Origin: a virus
IMG/VR virus record: IMGVR_UViG_3300005253_000252
Location: 1 to 35,639 of that record
Length of the DNA stretch: 35,639 nt
Direction: 5' to 3' (one strand)
A model generated the notes under the pieces. The model did not search any database, was not told the DNA's origin, and worked only from the letters and a program-made list of their open reading frames with translations. The number at the start of each line of letters is the position of its first letter. The stretch's first letter is position 1. Below, in pieces: positions 1 through 35,639 of the stretch. A program made the translations under genes and the position numbers.

Positions 1-206
1 TATATATATAAATACTATATATTAATAAATATTTATTATAAGAATAAGATATATAGATAAACAGATAATAATAAACAATAACTGTTTATTGTATAATAAC
101 TGTTCGTTGCTTTTCCATGTCGAGGGGGGGGGTTGTTTACTATTTACACCGTTACACGGTTACGTGTTTACACGTTTACAATGTAGACTATTATGTTATA
201 TATTAC
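1..206. other. AT-rich leader with G9 run and 8-bp tandem units; candidate origin
   Basis: No gene is visible here. Positions 1-110 are almost pure A/T, including a perfect ACAATAA-CTGT-TTATTGT palindrome. The word AATAACTGTT recurs near 76, 105 and 241. A run of nine G lies at 124-132. Five adjacent 8-bp units follow at 143-182 (TTTACACC, GTTACACG, GTTACGTG, TTTACACG, TTTACAAT). An easily melted stretch next to short direct repeats is the usual layout of an iteron-type origin, so this is an inferred origin or control region. No replication initiator site was recognised. The G run could also be a sequencing-sensitive homopolymer. Confidence 0.4.
143..182. repeat. Five degenerate 8-bp tandem repeats (KTTACACG-like)
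   Basis: Units start at 143, 151, 159, 167 and 175 with an exact 8-bp step, each containing TTAC near its start. A related TTTAC sits at 136. The array is non-coding, lies beside AT-rich DNA and occurs once in the window. It could be a set of binding sites for a replication or regulatory protein. Confidence 0.55.
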
Positions 207-229
207 CTATGTTCAACGGATGAACATAG
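207..229. repeat. Conserved dyad, copy 1 (CTATGTTCA-N5-TGAACATAG)
   Basis: Perfect 9-bp inverted repeat with the 5-nt loop ACGGA, lying 58 bp upstream of the -35 box of the first promoter. No T-run follows, so it is not an ordinary terminator here. It shares the downstream flank CATAGCCATTTCA with copy 3 near 10625. Confidence 0.75.
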
Positions 230-286: not shown

Positions 287-315
287 TTGAAGTCTGGTTT
301 GTAATGTCGTATATT
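287..315 (+). promoter_or_regulatory. Sigma-70-type promoter P1 for the left small-gene operon
   Basis: A TTGAAG -35 box (287-292), a 17-bp spacer and a TATATT -10 box (310-315) precede the first gene. The same arrangement with the same words (TTG-AGTCT at the left, AATGTCGTATATT at the right) occurs at 4956-4984. The repetition is stronger evidence than either box alone. No phage RNA polymerase gene was seen, so host polymerase is the likely reader. Confidence 0.7.
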
Positions 316-4198: not shown

Positions 4199-4532
4199 GA
4201 AATATGAGTTCATAGTAAAGAGGTCAAATGTTGAAACAGAAATGATATTCACAACAACTGCCAAATCAGATAGGGAGGCTATAACCAGGCTGGAAAAATG
4301 CCTCCAGATGTCAATAGGGGAACTGTTAAAAATAGAACCAAAGTCAGTATCAAAACCTATATATAGAAAGGAGGGCTATGCGTTTACAAAGGGGGATGTT
4401 GATAGGATAAAAAAGGGTTCATTACAAGCAAAGCAGTCAACAATCAACCTCATTCCCTTTCCCTATCTACACGAAGGGTTATTAAGGACGATGATACAGA
4501 AATTGAAACGAAAGGCTAATGCGAAGGAGTAA
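4179..4532 (+). CDS. Hypothetical basic protein
   Basis: Encodes 117 residues, strongly basic at both ends (MPRKTHRKYEF and a C-terminus rich in Lys and Arg). The first half alternates strands and a helix (YEFIVKRSN, EMIFTTTAKS, DREAITRLEKCL), like small phage proteins of unknown role. GGAGGAGAGGAGG lies upstream of the ATG. DNA binding is possible but not shown. Confidence 0.7.
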   Translation: MPRKTHRKYEFIVKRSNVETEMIFTTTAKSDREAITRLEKCLQMSIGELLKIEPKSVSKPIYRKEGYAFTKGDVDRIKKGSLQAKQSTINLIPFPYLHEGLLRTMIQKLKRKANAKE

Positions 4533-4535
4533 ATA

Positions 4536-4700
4536 ATGATAAAAACAGTAGTAATATTAGAACATGAAAAGGAGACACCAGGCACAAATAGGTATAAGGA
4601 GGTTCAGGAACAGGGGAAGCTTACACTATTAAATCATATATACCTGCAAAAATGGGTAGGGAATCCGAGTAAGATTAGAGTAACGGTGGAGGAAGTATGA
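4536..4700 (+). CDS. 54-residue conserved-looking small phage protein
   Basis: Short gene starting at ATG 4536 with GAAGGAG upstream. The order of features (TVVILEHEKETPGTNRY, then a basic beta strand, then KIRVTVEEV) resembles a small family seen in many phages that lacks a known function; this is from memory. It overlaps the next gene by 4 bases (ATGA). Confidence 0.65.
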   Translation: MIKTVVILEHEKETPGTNRYKEVQEQGKLTLLNHIYLQKWVGNPSKIRVTVEEV

Positions 4701-4870
4701 GTTTCATATACTCCATGAAGTGTAAGGAATGTCAAACGGATCTATTATACACAACCACCATAGATAGTGGCATGGATCTCTTTGTAGATGTCTCACCCTG
4801 TCCTGAATGTATCAAGGCTTCCTCTTTGGCAGCCCTTGGAATATACAAGGACAAATTAGGATTAGATTAG
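4697..4870 (+). CDS. 57-residue zinc-ribbon protein, last gene of the left operon
   Basis: Starts at the ATGA overlap with the previous gene, with GGTGGAGG upstream. CKEC (C9, C12) and CPEC (C35, C38) form a four-cysteine ribbon. The stop at 4868-4870 is followed 15 bases later by an intrinsic terminator, so it closes the operon. Confidence 0.75.
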   Translation: MSFIYSMKCKECQTDLLYTTTIDSGMDLFVDVSPCPECIKASSLAALGIYKDKLGLD

Positions 4871-4885
4871 GCCAATCAACAAATG

Positions 4886-4920
4886 TCCCTATGTTCACTC
4901 GTTGAACATAGGGATTTTTT
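4886..4920 (+). terminator. Intrinsic terminator built on conserved dyad copy 2
   Basis: Twelve-bp perfect stem (4886-4897 with 4903-4914), loop CTCGT, then six T. The inner 9 bp are the same CTATGTTCA/TGAACATAG seen in four other places; here three extra G-C/T-A pairs and a T-run make it a proper terminator for the left operon. Confidence 0.85.
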
Positions 4921-4955
4921 ATATATACAAACGCACAAAGAATATGAAATAATAC

Positions 4956-4984
4956 TTGCAGTCTCCCAATAAATGTCGTATATT
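4956..4984 (+). promoter_or_regulatory. Sigma-70-type promoter P2 for the endolysin operon
   Basis: TTGCAG (4956-4961), a 17-bp spacer and TATATT (4979-4984), with an overlapping TATAAT at 4984-4989. The spacer ends in AATGTCG exactly as in P1. It lies between the terminator and the endolysin start, 51 bp upstream of the ATG. Confidence 0.75.
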
Positions 4985-5034
4985 ATAATGTTGTTTTGGC
5001 ACAATAAAAATTACAATATTACAAAGGAGGCTGA

Positions 5035-10601: not shown

Positions 10602-10626
10602 GCTATGTTCACCCATTGAACATAGC
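10602..10626. repeat. Conserved dyad, copy 3
   Basis: GCTATGTTCA/TGAACATAGC, a 10-bp perfect stem with loop CCCAT, 7 bases after the stop of the coiled-coil gene. No T-run follows; the downstream CATTTCA also follows copy 1. Lies in the untranslated gap before the DUF669-like gene. Confidence 0.75.
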
Positions 10627-12376: not shown

Positions 12377-12726
12377 TGGACTACCAACAAATCCTAAACA
12401 ACATGCCCAACCACCTCAAACCTGGTCTCCAGGGTCAGGAGTTGAAAGCAAGGGAGGGTCTCCTCATCCTATACCATATAGAAAACAACCCAACAAAGGT
12501 GGAGGAGATATTGAAAATGTCAGGGGTTAGGAAAGTAAAATTCTGTGACTGTTATAACGGCATCATAGGGTATAGGGTTATTAAGAAAGCAAGGAATGAA
12601 AAACCTATCATTTGTCGATGCACAATGAGGATGATAGGGCAGGGTAGAGAGGGTGTATTGTTAGTCGATTGGAAAGGATATGAAACCAGAGAGGAGGAAA
12701 TATTAAATGCAAGAGAAACAACGTAA
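12376..12726 (+). CDS. Hypothetical protein with CxC pairs
   Basis: Encodes 116 residues. C57/C59 (CDC) and C80/C82 (CRC) could form one metal site in the second half. N-terminal half is helical. The stop of the previous gene shares its last A with this ATG. Overlaps the methyltransferase gene by 20 bases. Function unknown. Confidence 0.65.
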   Translation: MDYQQILNNMPNHLKPGLQGQELKAREGLLILYHIENNPTKVEEILKMSGVRKVKFCDCYNGIIGYRVIKKARNEKPIICRCTMRMIGQGREGVLLVDWKGYETREEEILNARETT

Positions 12727-14068
12727 CCTACTTGACATAAAGGCAATTCTAAAGGAAATAGATATATCATCCATTAACCCTGGTCAGCGTGGGCGGAAGA
12801 AGATGAGGAATATAAAGGAGATGGAAATATCTATAAAGGAGAGGGGGTTAATTCACCCCATCGCTGTCATGTCATATAAAGAAAGATATAAAGGGTATAA
12901 TTATTTCCTCCTCGCCGGTGGGAGACGAATCCAGGCATTAAAGAATCTAAAGGAAACAAAAATACAGGCTCGAATATACCCCCCCGACCTCAACAGCTTC
13001 GAGATAACAAGTATAGAGTTAGAGGAGAATCTGAAGCGTGAAGCCCTAACAGATGGGGAGAGATTAACAATGGTGAAGAAAGTTCATGACCATTGGGAAG
13101 ATATGTATGGAAAGAAAACCTCAACCTCTCCTACTGCAACTGGGCATAGTAAAGCTAATACCGCCGAGCGTCTTGGTGTTTCGAAGGCAAAGATAACGGA
13201 GGATCTAAAGCTTGCAGAATATATAGAGGCTGTCCCTGAGTTAAAGGAGATGGATAGGAAGGAGATTGTAAAAACAATAAAGACTATGAAGAAAACCCTC
13301 GCCACTAAGGAAAAAGTAGCGGAGATAAAGAAGGAGAGGGAGGAGATTGGAAAGGTGGATAAACTACTCCCCCTTGAACAATCGTTTATAACAGGTAATT
13401 TCTATGAGAAGGCGAGGGAGATACCAAATGGAACTATCGACTTAATAGATTTAGATATAGATTACCCAATAGAAGTAGACGACAACATCCAGCACGCCAA
13501 CATTCAGGGTGAAAAGGAGAGGGGGGTTTATCAGGGGATCAGTAAAAAAGAATACCCTAAGATGATGAAGCTAGCTATGAGAGAATCATATCGAATGATG
13601 AATAATACAGGTTGGTGTATCATCTGGTTTGGGCGGGAATACTTTAAAGAAATCCAAACGTGGGGGGAGGAGATAGGATTTAAAACATGCTGGTATACAG
13701 GACGTTGGTTGAAGGGGGCTAAGCATGGTCATACAAGAAACCCACAGTGGTTCCTCAACCACACGATTGAGGAATTTTTCTATTTCAGGAAGAGTAGTTC
13801 AATCATTGATACTCCCCATGTAGATATATTTGAACACCCTCCTACTCCTCCATCTATTAAACAGCATCCATTTGAAAAACCTGTTAATTTAATGTATGAG
13901 ATACTACAAACATTCATTCATCCTGGGAGTAGGGTAGTCGTGCCATTTGCTGGGAGTGGTAATACATTGAAGGCATGTTGGCAGTATGGTTGTAAGGGAG
14001 TCGGGTTTGAATTAGGGGAGGAATATAAAGAAAGATTTATTGTTGATATAAGGAGTATGTTTACATGA
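12707..14068 (+). CDS. ParB-like nuclease domain fused to a beta-class DNA methyltransferase
   Basis: Encodes 453 residues. Residues 15-120 are a ParB/sulfiredoxin-like N-terminal domain with LAGGRR (69-74) and a conserved EENLKREALTDGERL box. Residues 145-170 look like the following helix-turn-helix. The methyltransferase half starts near 225; motif IV reads DIDY (250-253) instead of the usual DPPY/NPPY, and motif I is PFAGSGNT (413-420), so the order is beta-type (N4-cytosine or N6-adenine). The motif IV change removes the PP pair. The domain combination is known in phages; activity here is uncertain. It could protect phage DNA from host restriction. Confidence 0.85.
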   Translation: MQEKQRNLLDIKAILKEIDISSINPGQRGRKKMRNIKEMEISIKERGLIHPIAVMSYKERYKGYNYFLLAGGRRIQALKNLKETKIQARIYPPDLNSFEITSIELEENLKREALTDGERLTMVKKVHDHWEDMYGKKTSTSPTATGHSKANTAERLGVSKAKITEDLKLAEYIEAVPELKEMDRKEIVKTIKTMKKTLATKEKVAEIKKEREEIGKVDKLLPLEQSFITGNFYEKAREIPNGTIDLIDLDIDYPIEVDDNIQHANIQGEKERGVYQGISKKEYPKMMKLAMRESYRMMNNTGWCIIWFGREYFKEIQTWGEEIGFKTCWYTGRWLKGAKHGHTRNPQWFLNHTIEEFFYFRKSSSIIDTPHVDIFEHPPTPPSIKQHPFEKPVNLMYEILQTFIHPGSRVVVPFAGSGNTLKACWQYGCKGVGFELGEEYKERFIVDIRSMFT

Positions 14069-14863: not shown

Positions 14864-17344
14864 ATGGATAGACGTGTTCCACCTGAAGGGAGTCCCGATA
14901 GTAAAATAGCATTCATCGGTGAAGCTCCCGCCCATCATGAGGTGATAGAAGGTCGCCCCCTTGTTGGGAAGACAGGACAATACTTCAACGACCTCTTATT
15001 AACAAGTAGGATAGCAAGGAGTGAATGTTACCTTGATAATATATTCGAGGTGGAGGTTAAGAAGATAAGGGCAAAGAGGGGACAGCAGAATGTAGATTTA
15101 TATTTCTCCCTTGACAAACGATTACTATATGCAACAGATACAGGGTTTACAAAGGAGGGGAGTGTATATGCTGACCGTCTTGTTGATAGGGTAAAGAGGT
15201 TGAATTGTAATATAATAGTTCCAATGGGTAATCCTGCAATGGAAGCCCTTACTGGAAAGAGGGGGATAGTAAAGTGGAGGGGGTCTATTATATATTCTGG
15301 TATAATAAATAAGAAAGTAATGCCGACCATTCATCCTGCTGCTATCTTTAGAACCTATATGTATAAACATTTTATCCTGTTCGATTTTAGGAGGGCAAAG
15401 GATGAGATGGAATCTCCTGTTTTTACTAATCCCTTTTGTCATTATGAACTAATAGGTAGTTTTCAGTATTATAAGAATTACCTAACCGAGGTAAGGGTTA
15501 AAGGTAAAAGTATAGCTTTTGATATTGAGGTTATGAATCAGGAAGTTTCCTGTATCTCATTCTCCACCTGCCCTACTCAAGCAATCTCTATCCCCTTCCG
15601 ATATAATAGAAAGGAATATTTCACCCTCCCACAGGAGATGGAGATCTGGCATCTCATAGCACAAATATTAGAGGATAAAGATATAAAAAAGACAGGTCAA
15701 AACCTAGCATTTGATAACTCCTTCCTCTTTGACAAGTATGGAATTGTAGTAAGGAATGTCGAGGATACTATGGTAGCCCACTCTACCCTATTCCCTGATT
15801 TTCCAGCAGGCTTGGACTTTATAACAAGCATGTATACAAAGGAACCATACTATAAAGATGAGGGGAAGGAGTATTTTAAATGGGGAGGGAGTGACCTCGA
15901 CTTCCTATTATACAATGCTAAGGATAGTAAAGTTTGTATTGAATCCTTCCCCCAGATACGCTCCGACCTTGAACGGTTACGTAATATAGAAACCTATGAA
16001 TGGCAGAAGAAGTTAATAGAACCAGTAACATACATGGGACAGAAAGGGTTGAGAGTAGATGAGGAGGGGATTGAGAAGGAGAAGATAACACAACAGAATA
16101 TCGCCAACGAATTGTCAGAGGAACTCAATAGTTTAATTGGCTTCACCATCAACGCAAACAGTAGTCAACAATGCAGTGCCTATTTCTACGTCAAGAAAGG
16201 CATCCCTCCATATAGGAGGACAGGAAAGATAACCTGTAATGAGGGAGCCTTGAAACGATTGGCGAGAGGAACGGCTCAAAGAAAGGGATTGAAAGAAGCA
16301 CATCTTATCCTACAAATTAGGAAGGCTAGGAATTTTGTTAGCAAATCCCTCGATGTAAAGTTAAAGAATGGACGCTTTGTCTGCTCCTACCGTCCAGTTA
16401 CTAAGATGGGCAGGTTATCATCCTCTGCTGATCTATTCGGCTATGGTAGTAACCTCCAGAATCAACCAAAGGTTATGAACAACTTCTTCCTCGCCGATCC
16501 TGGTTACCTCATATACAATGTTGACCTATCCCAAGCTGATAATAGAAGTGTAGCATACATTGCCCCTGAACCTCGTATGATACGAGCTTTCGAAGATGGA
16601 GTTGATGTTCACTCCCTCACCGCATCCTTAATATTCGACATACCAGCAGAGAGAATAAAGGAGATGGATAAGGCAGGAACTAAATGTCCATTAGGATATG
16701 GGGATCAAACACACAGATATTGGGGGAAGAAAGGTAATCACGAATTAAACTTCGGTATGGGATATAGGAAGTTTGCCTATCAATTAGAATTGCCAGAGAA
16801 AGAAGGAAAGATGATACATACAAAGTATCATAGAGTCTATCCAGGGGTTCAACATGGATACCAGCTAATGGTGCGAAACCAACTAGGAAGTAATAACAGA
16901 ATACTGGAGAACTGCTATGGACGAAAATATTTGTTTAAAGATAGGTGGGGAGATGGTCTCTTCAATCAAGCATACGCTTTCATTCCTCAATCTAATACAG
17001 CAGATACTATCAACAGACGAGGAATCATCCCTCTATATTACTATCAAGAAAGTTTCGAGGGGGTCGAGATACTTAGACAAGTGCATGATTCAATTAATTT
17101 TCAAATCCCAACAACTCGAGGCATCGACTACCATATTCGAGTCCTACGAAGTATTAAAGAAAATCTCGAGCAACCTCTTATCTGGAAGGCAACTCAATTT
17201 ACAATTCCAGCCGAGTTCTCAGTTGGATTGAATCTTGGCGCTCGATATAAGGGAAAGGAGTTAGTGAATCCAGATGGGCAGATGGAGATTGATATGGGAG
17301 GAGATTTAAAGGGACAATTATCTAAATATTGGAGGGAAGGATGA
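14864..17344 (+). CDS. DNA polymerase A with N-terminal uracil-DNA-glycosylase-like domain
   Basis: Encodes 826 residues. Residues 10-180 have the family 4/5 UDG pattern: GEAPAHHEV (19-27), RPLVGKTG and TIHPAAIF (155-162), without the cysteine cluster of iron-sulfur UDGs. The 3'-5' exonuclease follows: D220/E222, D284, Y350 and D354. Polymerase motif A has D554 (YNVDLSQ). The O-helix reads KKGNHELNFGMGY (622-634), with F630 and Y634 but His626 where E. coli Pol I has Lys758. Motif C is HDS (741-743) rather than HDE. It is the replicative polymerase. Ribosome binding site GGAGGAG. Confidence 0.9.
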   Translation: MDRRVPPEGSPDSKIAFIGEAPAHHEVIEGRPLVGKTGQYFNDLLLTSRIARSECYLDNIFEVEVKKIRAKRGQQNVDLYFSLDKRLLYATDTGFTKEGSVYADRLVDRVKRLNCNIIVPMGNPAMEALTGKRGIVKWRGSIIYSGIINKKVMPTIHPAAIFRTYMYKHFILFDFRRAKDEMESPVFTNPFCHYELIGSFQYYKNYLTEVRVKGKSIAFDIEVMNQEVSCISFSTCPTQAISIPFRYNRKEYFTLPQEMEIWHLIAQILEDKDIKKTGQNLAFDNSFLFDKYGIVVRNVEDTMVAHSTLFPDFPAGLDFITSMYTKEPYYKDEGKEYFKWGGSDLDFLLYNAKDSKVCIESFPQIRSDLERLRNIETYEWQKKLIEPVTYMGQKGLRVDEEGIEKEKITQQNIANELSEELNSLIGFTINANSSQQCSAYFYVKKGIPPYRRTGKITCNEGALKRLARGTAQRKGLKEAHLILQIRKARNFVSKSLDVKLKNGRFVCSYRPVTKMGRLSSSADLFGYGSNLQNQPKVMNNFFLADPGYLIYNVDLSQADNRSVAYIAPEPRMIRAFEDGVDVHSLTASLIFDIPAERIKEMDKAGTKCPLGYGDQTHRYWGKKGNHELNFGMGYRKFAYQLELPEKEGKMIHTKYHRVYPGVQHGYQLMVRNQLGSNNRILENCYGRKYLFKDRWGDGLFNQAYAFIPQSNTADTINRRGIIPLYYYQESFEGVEILRQVHDSINFQIPTTRGIDYHIRVLRSIKENLEQPLIWKATQFTIPAEFSVGLNLGARYKGKELVNPDGQMEIDMGGDLKGQLSKYWREG

Positions 17345-18677: not shown

Positions 18678-19889
18678 ATGAGAGAGCTACCCGATTGGAT
18701 TGATGGTTGGATGCAGTATATGAAGAATAGTGAAGCTCCTCAACTCTACAATAAGTGGGTAGCTATATCCATGATAGCTGCTGTGTTGGAGAGGAAGGTT
18801 TGGCTACGCTGGGATAAGGAAATATATGTAAACTTCTTCATAATCCTCGCCGGTCCACCTGCTGGAGGGAAAGGAACAGCAATGGAGCCAGGAAGGTTGA
18901 TGTTAGAGGAGATGTCAATTAATATAGCAGCCGACTGTTCATCAAAGGAGCAGTTGGTAGTAAGGTTAAAGGAGCCAACCACTAATTTTGAATACCCCCC
19001 TAGATCAAATATAATACACCCCTACTCTGCCATGACAGTATTCTCAGAGGAGTTCACTGTGTTCCTCGGTTATGGGAATATAGATTTAATCGGTTGGTTG
19101 TCAAATTGGTATGACTGTCGTGACCCCTGGAACTATGAAACCAAGCATCAGGGCAAAGCTCACATTGATGGACTGTGGGTAAATTTAATAGGAGCAACCA
19201 CCCCCGATTTGTTACGTGATGCCCTCCCGACCGAAACATTTGGAAGCGGACTCAATAGCCGGATCATATATGTTTACGCCCCAGGACGTGGTAAATTGAT
19301 CGTATTTCCGCACAAAAAAACAGGACAACCGGAATTGTGGAATAAATTGAATATTGATCTTCAAAACATAAAATTGGAAGTAGGAGCCTATACGCCCAGT
19401 GAATCATATGAGAAGGTGTGGGGGGAGTGGTATCCTCTCCAACGCCAGCATCCCTTTACACAGGACTCATACATGATCCACTATGCAGGACGGAGAGCTA
19501 CTCATATACATAAACTATCCATGATAATGAACGCCTCGAGAAATGGAGGAATGATATTGACAGATGAGGATTTTAAAAGAGCCTTGAAAATCTTAATCAC
19601 TACCGAACGCCACATGAAGAGGACGTTTGCTGGAATGGGGAAGAATAAATTTGCAGCTACCATGTATAAGATAGGAGAGGTTATAAGGATGAGGGGGAGT
19701 ATACAGTATTCGGAATTGTTAGAGAAGTTTTACTACGATGCTGACAATAATGAAATGTCTACCATCCTCGCCACGTTGGAAGTTGCAGGGAAGATTAAAT
19801 GGGAATATGGGGAGAGTAGAAAATTGAAAGAGGCAATGATAATTTGGAATAAAAAAGAGGAAGCGGATGAATCCACTCCCTCAATATAA
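18678..19889 (+). CDS. DUF3987-like ATPase, candidate replicative helicase/primase-helicase
   Basis: Encodes 403 residues. Walker A is GPPAGGKGT (59-67); acidic residues in VFSEEFTVF are a likely Walker B, and helices follow with RR residues suitable as arginine fingers. The C-terminal region (about 330-390) resembles a winged helix (SIQYSELLEKFYYDAD). DUF3987 proteins are found in phages at the place of a replicative helicase, and no other helicase is seen here. Last plus-strand gene of the module; converges on the minus block with a 6-bp gap. Confidence 0.75.
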   Translation: MRELPDWIDGWMQYMKNSEAPQLYNKWVAISMIAAVLERKVWLRWDKEIYVNFFIILAGPPAGGKGTAMEPGRLMLEEMSINIAADCSSKEQLVVRLKEPTTNFEYPPRSNIIHPYSAMTVFSEEFTVFLGYGNIDLIGWLSNWYDCRDPWNYETKHQGKAHIDGLWVNLIGATTPDLLRDALPTETFGSGLNSRIIYVYAPGRGKLIVFPHKKTGQPELWNKLNIDLQNIKLEVGAYTPSESYEKVWGEWYPLQRQHPFTQDSYMIHYAGRRATHIHKLSMIMNASRNGGMILTDEDFKRALKILITTERHMKRTFAGMGKNKFAATMYKIGEVIRMRGSIQYSELLEKFYYDADNNEMSTILATLEVAGKIKWEYGESRKLKEAMIIWNKKEEADESTPSI

Positions 19890-20436: not shown

Positions 20437-20459
20437 CTATGTTCAACGGATGAACATAG
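20437..20459. repeat. Conserved dyad, copy 4
   Basis: CTATGTTCA/TGAACATAG with the same ACGGA loop as copy 1. It sits between the stop of the 70-residue gene (20461) and the holin candidate. No T-run follows on the minus strand. Confidence 0.75.
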
Positions 20460-31259: not shown

Positions 31260-31282
31260 CTATGTTCAACCGTTGAACGTAG
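31260..31282. repeat. Conserved dyad, copy 5
   Basis: CTATGTTCA/TGAACGTAG, loop ACCGT; one base differs from the other copies and leaves a G-T wobble on the plus strand but a C-A mismatch in a minus-strand transcript. It lies between the capsid terminator and the adaptor start. Confidence 0.7.
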
Positions 31283-34151: not shown

Positions 34152-34661
34152 TTATTCGCCACGTCTATACCTAGACAAGTCACTCATTTGATCCTGTTGA
34201 CTTGACTGTTTCGTTTTCTTTTCTGTTTTAATAGGTATCGTTCGAGAGGCACCTGGTTTCCGAGGAATCCTTACTACCTTCTTTTTTTCCTCAGAGTCTG
34301 CCTGTTCCTCTTTGGTCTCTTTTATTCTGTCTCCTAGTATTGCTTGCACCTCCTGGTCTACTTGATTATAAACTTGCCCAAGTGTAAATTTGGGATTCTT
34401 TGTCTGTATCTCGTTCGTTTTTATAGCCACGAAGTCCTTCAATCCTGGATGCTTGATTGATAACTTTTCAAGCCCTGGATTCTTTCTCCAGAACTCCATA
34501 GCTGCTAAATGTCCTTTAACCCTCTGATCTATAATTTGAGGGACAATCTTCAACACGTCCTGAAATGCCTGTGTCCGCCCTCGTCTATTAGCTTCAGTTA
34601 CTACTTTATTCAACACCTTGTTCATGGAAGTAACATCCTTCTCATCAAAGGTTTCTCCCAT
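34152..34661 (-). CDS. Charged helical virion-operon protein, 5' end uncertain
   Basis: Encodes 169 residues from the ATG ending at 34661, with AAAAGGA four bases before it. It is helical and Lys/Glu/Gln-rich with a disordered basic C-terminus (SRYRRGE), a shape seen in scaffold-like assembly proteins, which is inference. The same frame stays open upstream for at least 29 codons (KGDPPAFLAPVEVKDIVYIE) to about 34750, where the sequence changes character. The gene may therefore be longer and cut by a junction. Confidence 0.6.
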   Translation of the reverse strand: MGETFDEKDVTSMNKVLNKVVTEANRRGRTQAFQDVLKIVPQIIDQRVKGHLAAMEFWRKNPGLEKLSIKHPGLKDFVAIKTNEIQTKNPKFTLGQVYNQVDQEVQAILGDRIKETKEEQADSEEKKKVVRIPRKPGASRTIPIKTEKKTKQSSQQDQMSDLSRYRRGE

Positions 34662-34739
34662 TGTATCCTTTTCTATATATACAATATCCTTTACTTCAAC
34701 AGGTGCGAGGAAAGCAGGGGGATCACCCTTCTTTTCCTC

Positions 34740-34770
34740 TTTCTTTTTTGGCTCTTGGAATAATAAATGG
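34740..34770. other. Apparent sequence junction (assembly chimera or recombination point)
   Basis: To the left, the minus-strand frame of the virion gene still reads as plausible protein; to the right, the plus strand reads as a tape-measure-like protein with no start codon or ribosome binding site. Both cannot be full genes. The two coding messages meet within about 20 bases of 34750. Confidence 0.65.
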
Positions 34771-35581
34771 ACTTGTTCCAGCTATTCGATTTTTTGGGTC
34801 TTTAGTTAGGCCACTTATTGGTAGCCTTACTGGTTTGACTGGAAGAATTTTTGCTATGGGTGCCGCAGGAACGGTTGCTAAAGGTGCAATAGCCATCTTT
34901 GCAGGGGTATTGAAATTGTTTGGCGCAATTGTTGTAGCTGCGGCAATTGCTTCTGGTTTTTTAGATGCTATACTTCGTGGAATTAATCCAATAATGGAAA
35001 AGTTTGGGTTTGAAACAGACAACGCAACTGACTCTCAAATAATTTTTGCTGAAGCTATTGGTTTAGCTATGACTATGCTAAGAGCAATGGGTATTTTTGC
35101 CGGAGAAGTTTTCATTCTTTTAATAAAACAAACAATTAATTTTGCTAAAGCTTTATTCCAAACGTTCTTGTTAATGGACGCAATAAGAAAAATGGATTTC
35201 TCAGAAGTGAACAGGCAGTTCCAAAACATTCAGATGACAATGAAAGAAATTTCAGATGATGTAAATACGGCAACAGACAATATAGCTGGTGGGTTTATGG
35301 ATATTGGTAGAAACATACAAGATATTAGAGACCGACAAAACCAAAGGATATTTAATAGGACAACTACTGGAGACCCAACGGTTTCTGGCTTAGTTGGATC
35401 ATTAGTTCAAGGCGCTCCAACAGTGCCAGCAACTGCTGGTGGAAGAGGAGACATTATATTTAGCCCAGTATTCAACTTAGAAGGGGCTGGACTAAACGAA
35501 AGCGAAATTGCTGCTTTAATAAATCAAAAATCAGAAGAAGAATTTGAGAGATTACTTGCAGCAGTAAGAGAACAAGGATAG
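34751..35581 (+). CDS. 5'-truncated tape-measure-like tail protein (C-terminal part)
   Basis: Encodes about 276 residues with no credible start; an upstream TTG at 34661 would lie wholly antisense to the minus-strand gene. Hydrophobic Gly/Ala-rich helices (LVRPLIGSLTGLTG, GTVAKGAIAIFAGVL, IVVAAAIASGFL) lead to an amphipathic coiled region and a closing GDIIFSPVFNLEGAG and SEEEFERLLAAV, like C-termini of tail tape measure proteins. Such a protein does not belong in a podovirus, which supports a foreign origin of this end. Confidence 0.6.
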   Translation, partial: ALGIINGLVPAIRFFGSLVRPLIGSLTGLTGRIFAMGAAGTVAKGAIAIFAGVLKLFGAIVVAAAIASGFLDAILRGINPIMEKFGFETDNATDSQIIFAEAIGLAMTMLRAMGIFAGEVFILLIKQTINFAKALFQTFLLMDAIRKMDFSEVNRQFQNIQMTMKEISDDVNTATDNIAGGFMDIGRNIQDIRDRQNQRIFNRTTTGDPTVSGLVGSLVQGAPTVPATAGGRGDIIFSPVFNLEGAGLNESEIAALINQKSEEEFERLLAAVREQG

Positions 35582-35591
35582 TGATTAATGT

Positions 35592-35639
35592 ATGGCAGTT
35601 CAAGATGAAAGCACAATGAAAACGAGTGGAACGGCAGTA
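35592..35639 (+). CDS. Partial CDS cut by the window end
   Basis: ATG 35592 follows AAGGA at 12 bases and opens MAVQDESTMKTSGTAV, running off the end. A start like this, after a tape-measure gene, would be a tail or baseplate protein, but 16 residues cannot decide. An ATG at 35588 in another frame stops at once. Confidence 0.4.
   Translation, partial: MAVQDESTMKTSGTAV

Follow-up and report, generated by a model that had tools for sequence, protein, structure and literature searches.

The leftmost few hundred bases of the DNA analysed here, a virus record of 35,639 bases (the window, by which we mean this whole stretch), raise the question of what a short tandem array lying beside a run of nine Gs and an A/T-rich stretch is for. 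The original prediction was that of an iteron origin with a melting zone. In iteron origins of phages and plasmids (the lambda origin and similar), short repeated units adjoin an A/T-rich stretch, and the window likewise has short units beside such a stretch. For uncultured phages, origins are difficult to locate since the repeat units change from one species to the next, and a recognisable layout would permit origin prediction from sequence in this group.

The array probably forms the right-hand arm of a bidirectional, mirror-symmetric origin, whose left arm and part of whose core were lost at the contig end. Many phages of only distant kinship show this layout too, which is why the array is taken as a probable origin arm; the other arm and some of the core would be missing since the contig stops inside the A/T-rich core.

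The array and the contig end

The five units that had been proposed at exact 8-bp steps (143-182) were borne out, namely TTTACACC at 143, GTTACACG at 151, GTTACGTG at 159, TTTACACG at 167 and TTTACAAT at 175, which match TTTACACG at 7, 7, 5, 8 and 6 of 8 positions, respectively. To these we add a sixth WTAC-centred unit, TTTACTAT, at 136, with 5 of 8 matches to TTTACACG and a 7-bp step ahead of the unit at 143. The nine-G run and the almost pure A/T DNA beside the array are also as originally described (Table 1); no other 100 bp of the window are as rich in A/T as positions 2-101 (89%), and a C7 run lies at 12979. As in iteron origins, short tandem repeats follow one another at regular steps in non-coding DNA (136-182) and are adjoined by an A/T-rich zone, the latter a matter of composition alone; as in the proposed two-armed origin of relatives, WTAC-type units 7-10 bp apart and oriented outward stand beside the presumed core. 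The first likely gene starts at 387, preceded by AAGGGAGGTG, and positions 1-386 hold no genes except two ORFs of 51 and 53 aa. This had been called the sole gene-free stretch of more than 300 bp, which is true provided that two ORFs at 4536-4870 (54 and 57 aa) count as genes, but with ORFs of at least 70 aa alone 4533-5034 becomes a second one.

Table 1. Features of the window discussed in the text
Feature	Position	Strand	Remark
A/T-rich stretch, cut by contig end	1-107		87% A/T; probably part of melting core
G9 run, edge between core and array	124-132	+	sole G run of at least 7 in window
Six-unit WTAC-centred array, one 7-bp then four 8-bp steps	136-182	+	probable right arm
Palindrome TATGTTCA-N5-TGAACATA, 21 bp	208-228		one of five dispersed copies
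Promoter-like site TTGAAG-N17-TATATT, ahead of first early gene	287-315	+	9/12 matches
ParB_N / DNA methyltransferase fusion	12707-14068	+	Pfam ParB_N, N6_N4_Mtase
Uracil-DNA-glycosylase / family A polymerase fusion	14864-17344	+	Pfam UDG, DNA_pol_A_exo1, DNA_pol_A
DUF3987 protein, predicted MCM-like AAA+ with C-terminal winged helix	18678-19889	+	putative candidate initiator-helicase

The units are imperfect and Tandem Repeats Finder gives the array a score of 41, ordinary among the 14 rows of the window (30-47), as would be expected if it had arisen by chance or slippage in A/T-rich DNA and its likeness to the arms of relatives were accidental. We regard this as very improbable, given that the lag-8 score of the array (23/32), the best of the window, was reached only once when the whole window was simulated 300 times under a first-order Markov model, and that just 2 of 500 shuffles equalled the five WTAC steps of 7-10 bp in the probable right arm of the window. 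The six WTAC sites at this spacing also form the longest such run of the window, the runners-up having two sites on the plus and four on the minus strand. In simulations of the local 400 bp, the score of the array was reached 4 times in 2000 at lag 8 and 7 times in 2000 with any period of 6-12.

The record is a linear fragment, a complete genome being excluded, and its base 1 cuts into the A/T-rich stretch. A near-identical record of 43,279 bases, IMGVR_UViG_3300005663_000093 (G001), differs from the window at 4 of about 27.8 thousand compared positions, up to window position 34747, and ends within the A/T-rich stretch at the identical base 1; it carries terminase-like and portal-like genes, which are absent from the window. 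Besides G001, no close relatives were found by DNA patterns or by polymerase and capsid scans of viral_contigs, a set that possibly omits very near records; genome_contigs gave zero relatives by nuclease alignment, a DNA similarity search of GenBank phages gave a single match (E 0.3), and Rfam and tRNA scans of the window gave no matches.

At the other end of the window, positions 34748-35639 are missing from G001, which instead runs into an acidic/lysine-rich scaffold-like ORF, portal and terminase, and the junction sits in A/G-rich low-complexity DNA. The last 0.9 kb of the window, including part of a 306-aa ORF (34661-35581), is therefore probably a chimeric assembly.

Judged by eye, the two ends of record G020 (L123/L124) share a 46-base overlap inside an origin-like structure, and the ends of G021 (L125/L126) are also within one. 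The ends of the window, G001, G008, G020 and G021 at this place suggest that the origin-like structure breaks assemblies, and the layout would help account for such contig breaks.

A two-armed layout in related phages

The circular genome of Desulfofustis phage LS06-2018-MD01 (OP947158) is syntenic, with identities of 38% (polymerase), 41% (DUF3987), 40% (capsid) and 36% (terminase). Its single G run of at least 7 is also a G9 (43209-43217), which has the top A/T window next to it, together with a 17-bp repeat in about three copies; an early plus-strand gene follows downstream at 43562. Inverted arms are present as well; the unit sequence is another one, however, and the G9 lies on the opposite side of the A/T peak. 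Because OP947158 shows this setting of G9, A/T-rich DNA and repeats, relatives were searched for more widely. In total, 55 loci were gathered by nuclease alignment and 30 by terminase, with G001 counted in both, and in 25 records from these loci a primase-like gene was located in 21, the terminase in 21 and the nuclease in 24.

Many of these relatives have inverted arms around an A/T-rich core, the arms often built of 8-9-bp units and sometimes accompanied by G or C runs. Record G005 has C7 to the left and G9 to the right of the core, with GGTTACGTTGGTTACGTTGATTACA in its right arm, while G024 and G025 have C6 on the left, G11 or G10 on the right and matching 40-bp arms. G007 has GTTGTTACGTTGTTACAATGATTACA, the arms of L024 and L026 measure about 86 and 102 bp, and in G002 the structure is present through locus L026. 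Core length is 69-295 bp in 20 tabulated structures, with bounds set by local alignment. The side of the G run varies; L011, G008 and G010 have it to the left of their A/T peak, and runs of at least 7 Gs or Cs occur within the structures of 6 of the 20 relatives.

The association of arms and core was assessed in L011 plus 18 of the 25 records, G008, G011 and G026 being excluded as cut short and G002, G016, G019 and G023 standing outside the test; G020, whose richest A/T window spans its record ends, gave no value, which leaves 18 regions. With a threshold of 14 that was picked, like the WTAC motif, post hoc once the arms had been inspected, and in a sample that includes the close kin G024/G025 and the similar G004/G007, 9 of 18 regions had an inverted-arm score of at least 14 at their most A/T-rich window, versus 3 of the 92 windows next in richness (Mann-Whitney p = 0.0017 on scores). 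The three high-scoring next-richest windows are the cores of G003, G005 and G025, and overall a flanked core was found in 13 of 18 regions of relatives with shared replication genes, counting G013 (37.5 at 4450). No flanked core was detected by this score in the other five (G012, G017, G018, G021 and G022), and in G005, G006, G010 and G014 some other inverted repeat of the region outscores that of the core.

G or C runs of at least 7 are concentrated in the structures, with seven of the nine in 20 regions falling inside them (7,713 of 266,454 bases) and two in the other 258.7 kb; the structure runs come from six genomes, among which G024 and G025 are kin. The right arms counted, 19 with that of the window and without those of G007 and G025, hold 15 WTAC pairs 7-10 bp apart, as against 2.65 ± 1.61 in shuffles (the largest count in 500 being 10), and none on the opposite strand. 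Five of the 15 pairs are given by the window and the others by G005, G006, G010, G012, L024 and L041, so that this type of spacing is common to the right arms of 6 of 18 relatives. Left arms hold 16 pairs versus 3.25 ± 1.88, a count that is dependent on the right arms. Since WTAC pairs are missing from 12 of the 19 right arms, the layout is more widely shared than the unit sequence.

Inverted repeats at L084 and L086 were left out of all counts, their cores resembling coding DNA. The contig of L019 starts in A/T-rich DNA and showed no clear array on reading, and the G10 run of L066 sits elsewhere in the genome than the place of the structure; G or C runs of at least 7 outside such a setting also occur in the fetched loci L049, L066, L093 and L098.

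Some GenBank records, MW202489 (L012), Microcystis phage Mel-JY34 (L013; PP438425, with the structure near 44.2 kb) and eight further DUF3987-bearing ones, among them MW202554, were scanned once the pattern had already been proposed. In L011, L012 and L013 the structure is the top inverted repeat of the whole record (26 vs 15, 20.5 vs 13 and 21 vs 17.5), as is the clear copy at the top A/T window of MW202554 (38 vs 13.5). The copy in vir526, whose host is listed as Methanomicrobiales, is just partial (29 vs 14), lying some 270 bp off the A/T peak. The structure was weak or negative in Kuura, PaP2, PaMx41, EBPR podovirus 3 (a partial record), Tiera and VS-ABTNL-3. Thus, 4 of the 11 DUF3987-bearing GenBank records examined have a clear copy, 1 a partial one and 6 no clear copy, the last including both Pseudomonas phages among the 11; DUF3987-bearing records found in GenBank number 25, and the 14 outside the scan are all Pseudomonas phages. 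MW202455, Serbin and SteamedHams, polymerase relatives outside the DUF3987 list, were negative.

The sharing of the layout among many relatives is well supported. What holds of the iteron reading is an origin-like site with a melting zone, for which the relatives speak by having an A/T core, repeat-built arms and G/C runs again where their early region begins; it falls short in that the array at 143-182 is probably just one of two inverted arms, and the other, with part of the core, would lie beyond base 1. Among titles and abstract starts of the open-access literature (preprints and most subscription papers being outside it), no description of a two-armed structure was recognised.

Replication proteins and known origins

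The genes conserved in relatives include those for the nuclease, a Sak4-like ATPase, the ParB-methyltransferase, the glycosylase-polymerase fusion, presumed to be the replicative polymerase, and the DUF3987 protein. The original prediction recognised no initiator gene, and indeed ten early proteins scanned gave no match to a known initiator; a conserved 149-aa early protein, considered as initiator, had no PDB match at E ≤ 0.001 (model pLDDT 82, pTM 0.45). The DUF3987 protein is nonetheless a candidate. A model built from 14 sequences, all 14 of which match DUF3987 in Pfam, has a pLDDT of 76 (moderate confidence) and a pTM of 0.72, and its residues 1-391, with the winged helix at the C-terminus, match MCM chains at a best Z of 20.0 (332 residues, rmsd 5.4). 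All of the best 50 structural matches listed are MCM chains or MCM-containing complexes, and the best Foldseek hit has an E-value of 5.6e-9. The protein would thus share an AAA+ domain and C-terminal winged helix, both predicted, with the MCM helicases of archaea and eukaryotes, but the Foldseek TM-score is about 0.5 (0.50 at the best E-value) and MCM is absent from the 12 Pfam families listed and from a PDB profile search. In the PaMx41 record the homologue is annotated as HHPred-similar to an archaeal origin-recognition protein, and in one study DUF3987 domains were predicted as helicases from domain context (PMC5862659). Going by the model, the predicted fold of the DUF3987 protein resembles that of MCM helicases, and the protein is a candidate initiator-helicase that would act at the array site. 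For bacterial viruses, and perhaps also for a methanogen virus, this points to a candidate initiator-helicase whose predicted fold is MCM-like.

Anatomy and position make the replication origin the most likely function of the structure. A phage initiator would bind the repeat units of two facing arms cooperatively, after which the A/T-rich core would melt; a pair of helicases, for which the MCM-like DUF3987 protein is the likeliest candidate, would be loaded in opposite directions, and the family A polymerase of the phage would then copy in both directions. We infer in this way a start of replication here, the identity of the binding protein, loading of the DUF3987 protein as a helicase and a left arm in this phage. 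It is a tentative and rather unlikely extension that these phages form a lineage with a symmetric two-armed origin, that two MCM-like DUF3987 helicases are placed on it head to head, the way MCM is loaded in archaea and eukaryotes, and that its repeat units change fast and follow the initiator of each phage.

Compared with iteron origins, the relatives differ in carrying two inverted arms that flank the core. Lambda iterons are longer than 8-9 bp, whereas the units here are of that size, and a known kind of initiator is absent among the ten proteins scanned. The oriS and oriL of herpes simplex virus have inverted binding sites around an A/T-rich spacer and resemble the structure of the relatives in this, although virus and proteins are unrelated and each arm here has several tandem units, often with a G/C run.

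A GC-skew plot had been proposed as a check of the origin. The cumulative skew peaks at 19869, the site of a gene-direction turn, and its turns coincide with such turns, lending no support to an origin at the array. Third-position skew of plus-strand genes was higher right of the site in only 4 of 15 relatives, and GC skew, which follows gene direction, was rejected as origin evidence.

Gene neighbourhood, promoters and dispersed repeats

In 14 relatives whose region ends at the nuclease gene, the structure lies 4.7-9.2 kb ahead of that gene and 2.3-14.7 kb from the terminase (approximate distances). ORFs of at least 70 aa, chosen mechanically, flank the 20 structures in the orientation +/+ in 12 cases, diverging in 4 and converging in 3, the left ORF being absent in 1. 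The steady nuclease distance, the variable terminase distance and the mostly +/+ ORFs weaken both packaging and divergent-promoter readings.

The array could be an operator, with repeated regulator sites for early promoters in A/T-rich promoter DNA and no role in replication. Two of the units, those at 167 and 175, carry TTTACA, which matches a -35 box, and are followed 16 and 18 bp on by -10-like hexamers (10/12 matches each); positions 1-700 hold 11 promoter-like sites versus 5.2 ± 2.0 in shuffles, 10 of 20 relatives have such a site (at least 9/12 matches) after the right arm, and the diverging ORF pairs are as an operator would have them. An operator would not need a pair of long inverted arms with an A/T-rich core between them, however, and with co-directional ORFs around 12 of 20 structures the symmetry is ill-suited to two diverging promoters. 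We consider a purely regulatory role unlikely.

A packaging, partition or recombination site, bound for instance by the ParB-methyltransferase, seems less probable still. The ParB_N-methyltransferase fusion, a speculative alternative candidate for the unit-binding protein, is kept in 39 fetched relative loci, and the terminase is 2.3-2.9 kb away in G012, L011, G024 and G025; across relatives, however, it is the distance to the early nuclease that is steady and that to the terminase that varies, and such a site leaves the A/T-rich core without explanation.

The palindrome downstream of the array (Table 1) recurs at 4890-4910, 10604-10624, 20438-20458 and 31261-31281, that is, 5 copies against 0.30 expected, and may be a terminator, an RNA-processing hairpin or a protein-binding site. 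The copies are in intergenic gaps, one has a mismatch, and that at 31261-31281 overlaps a possible gene start; with the same half-sites and spacer and at most 1 mismatch, the palindrome occurs 7 times in the G020 pieces and 6 times in the G021 pieces fetched. A promoter-like block, TTGMAGTCT-N8-ATGTCGTATATT, is present twice (287-315 and 4956-4984; 0 expected), each time 66-79 bp downstream of a palindrome copy. Identical translation-start leaders, ATAAAAGGAGGTGATATWTATG, were also observed at 948-969 and 1244-1265, ahead of two neighbouring small early genes.
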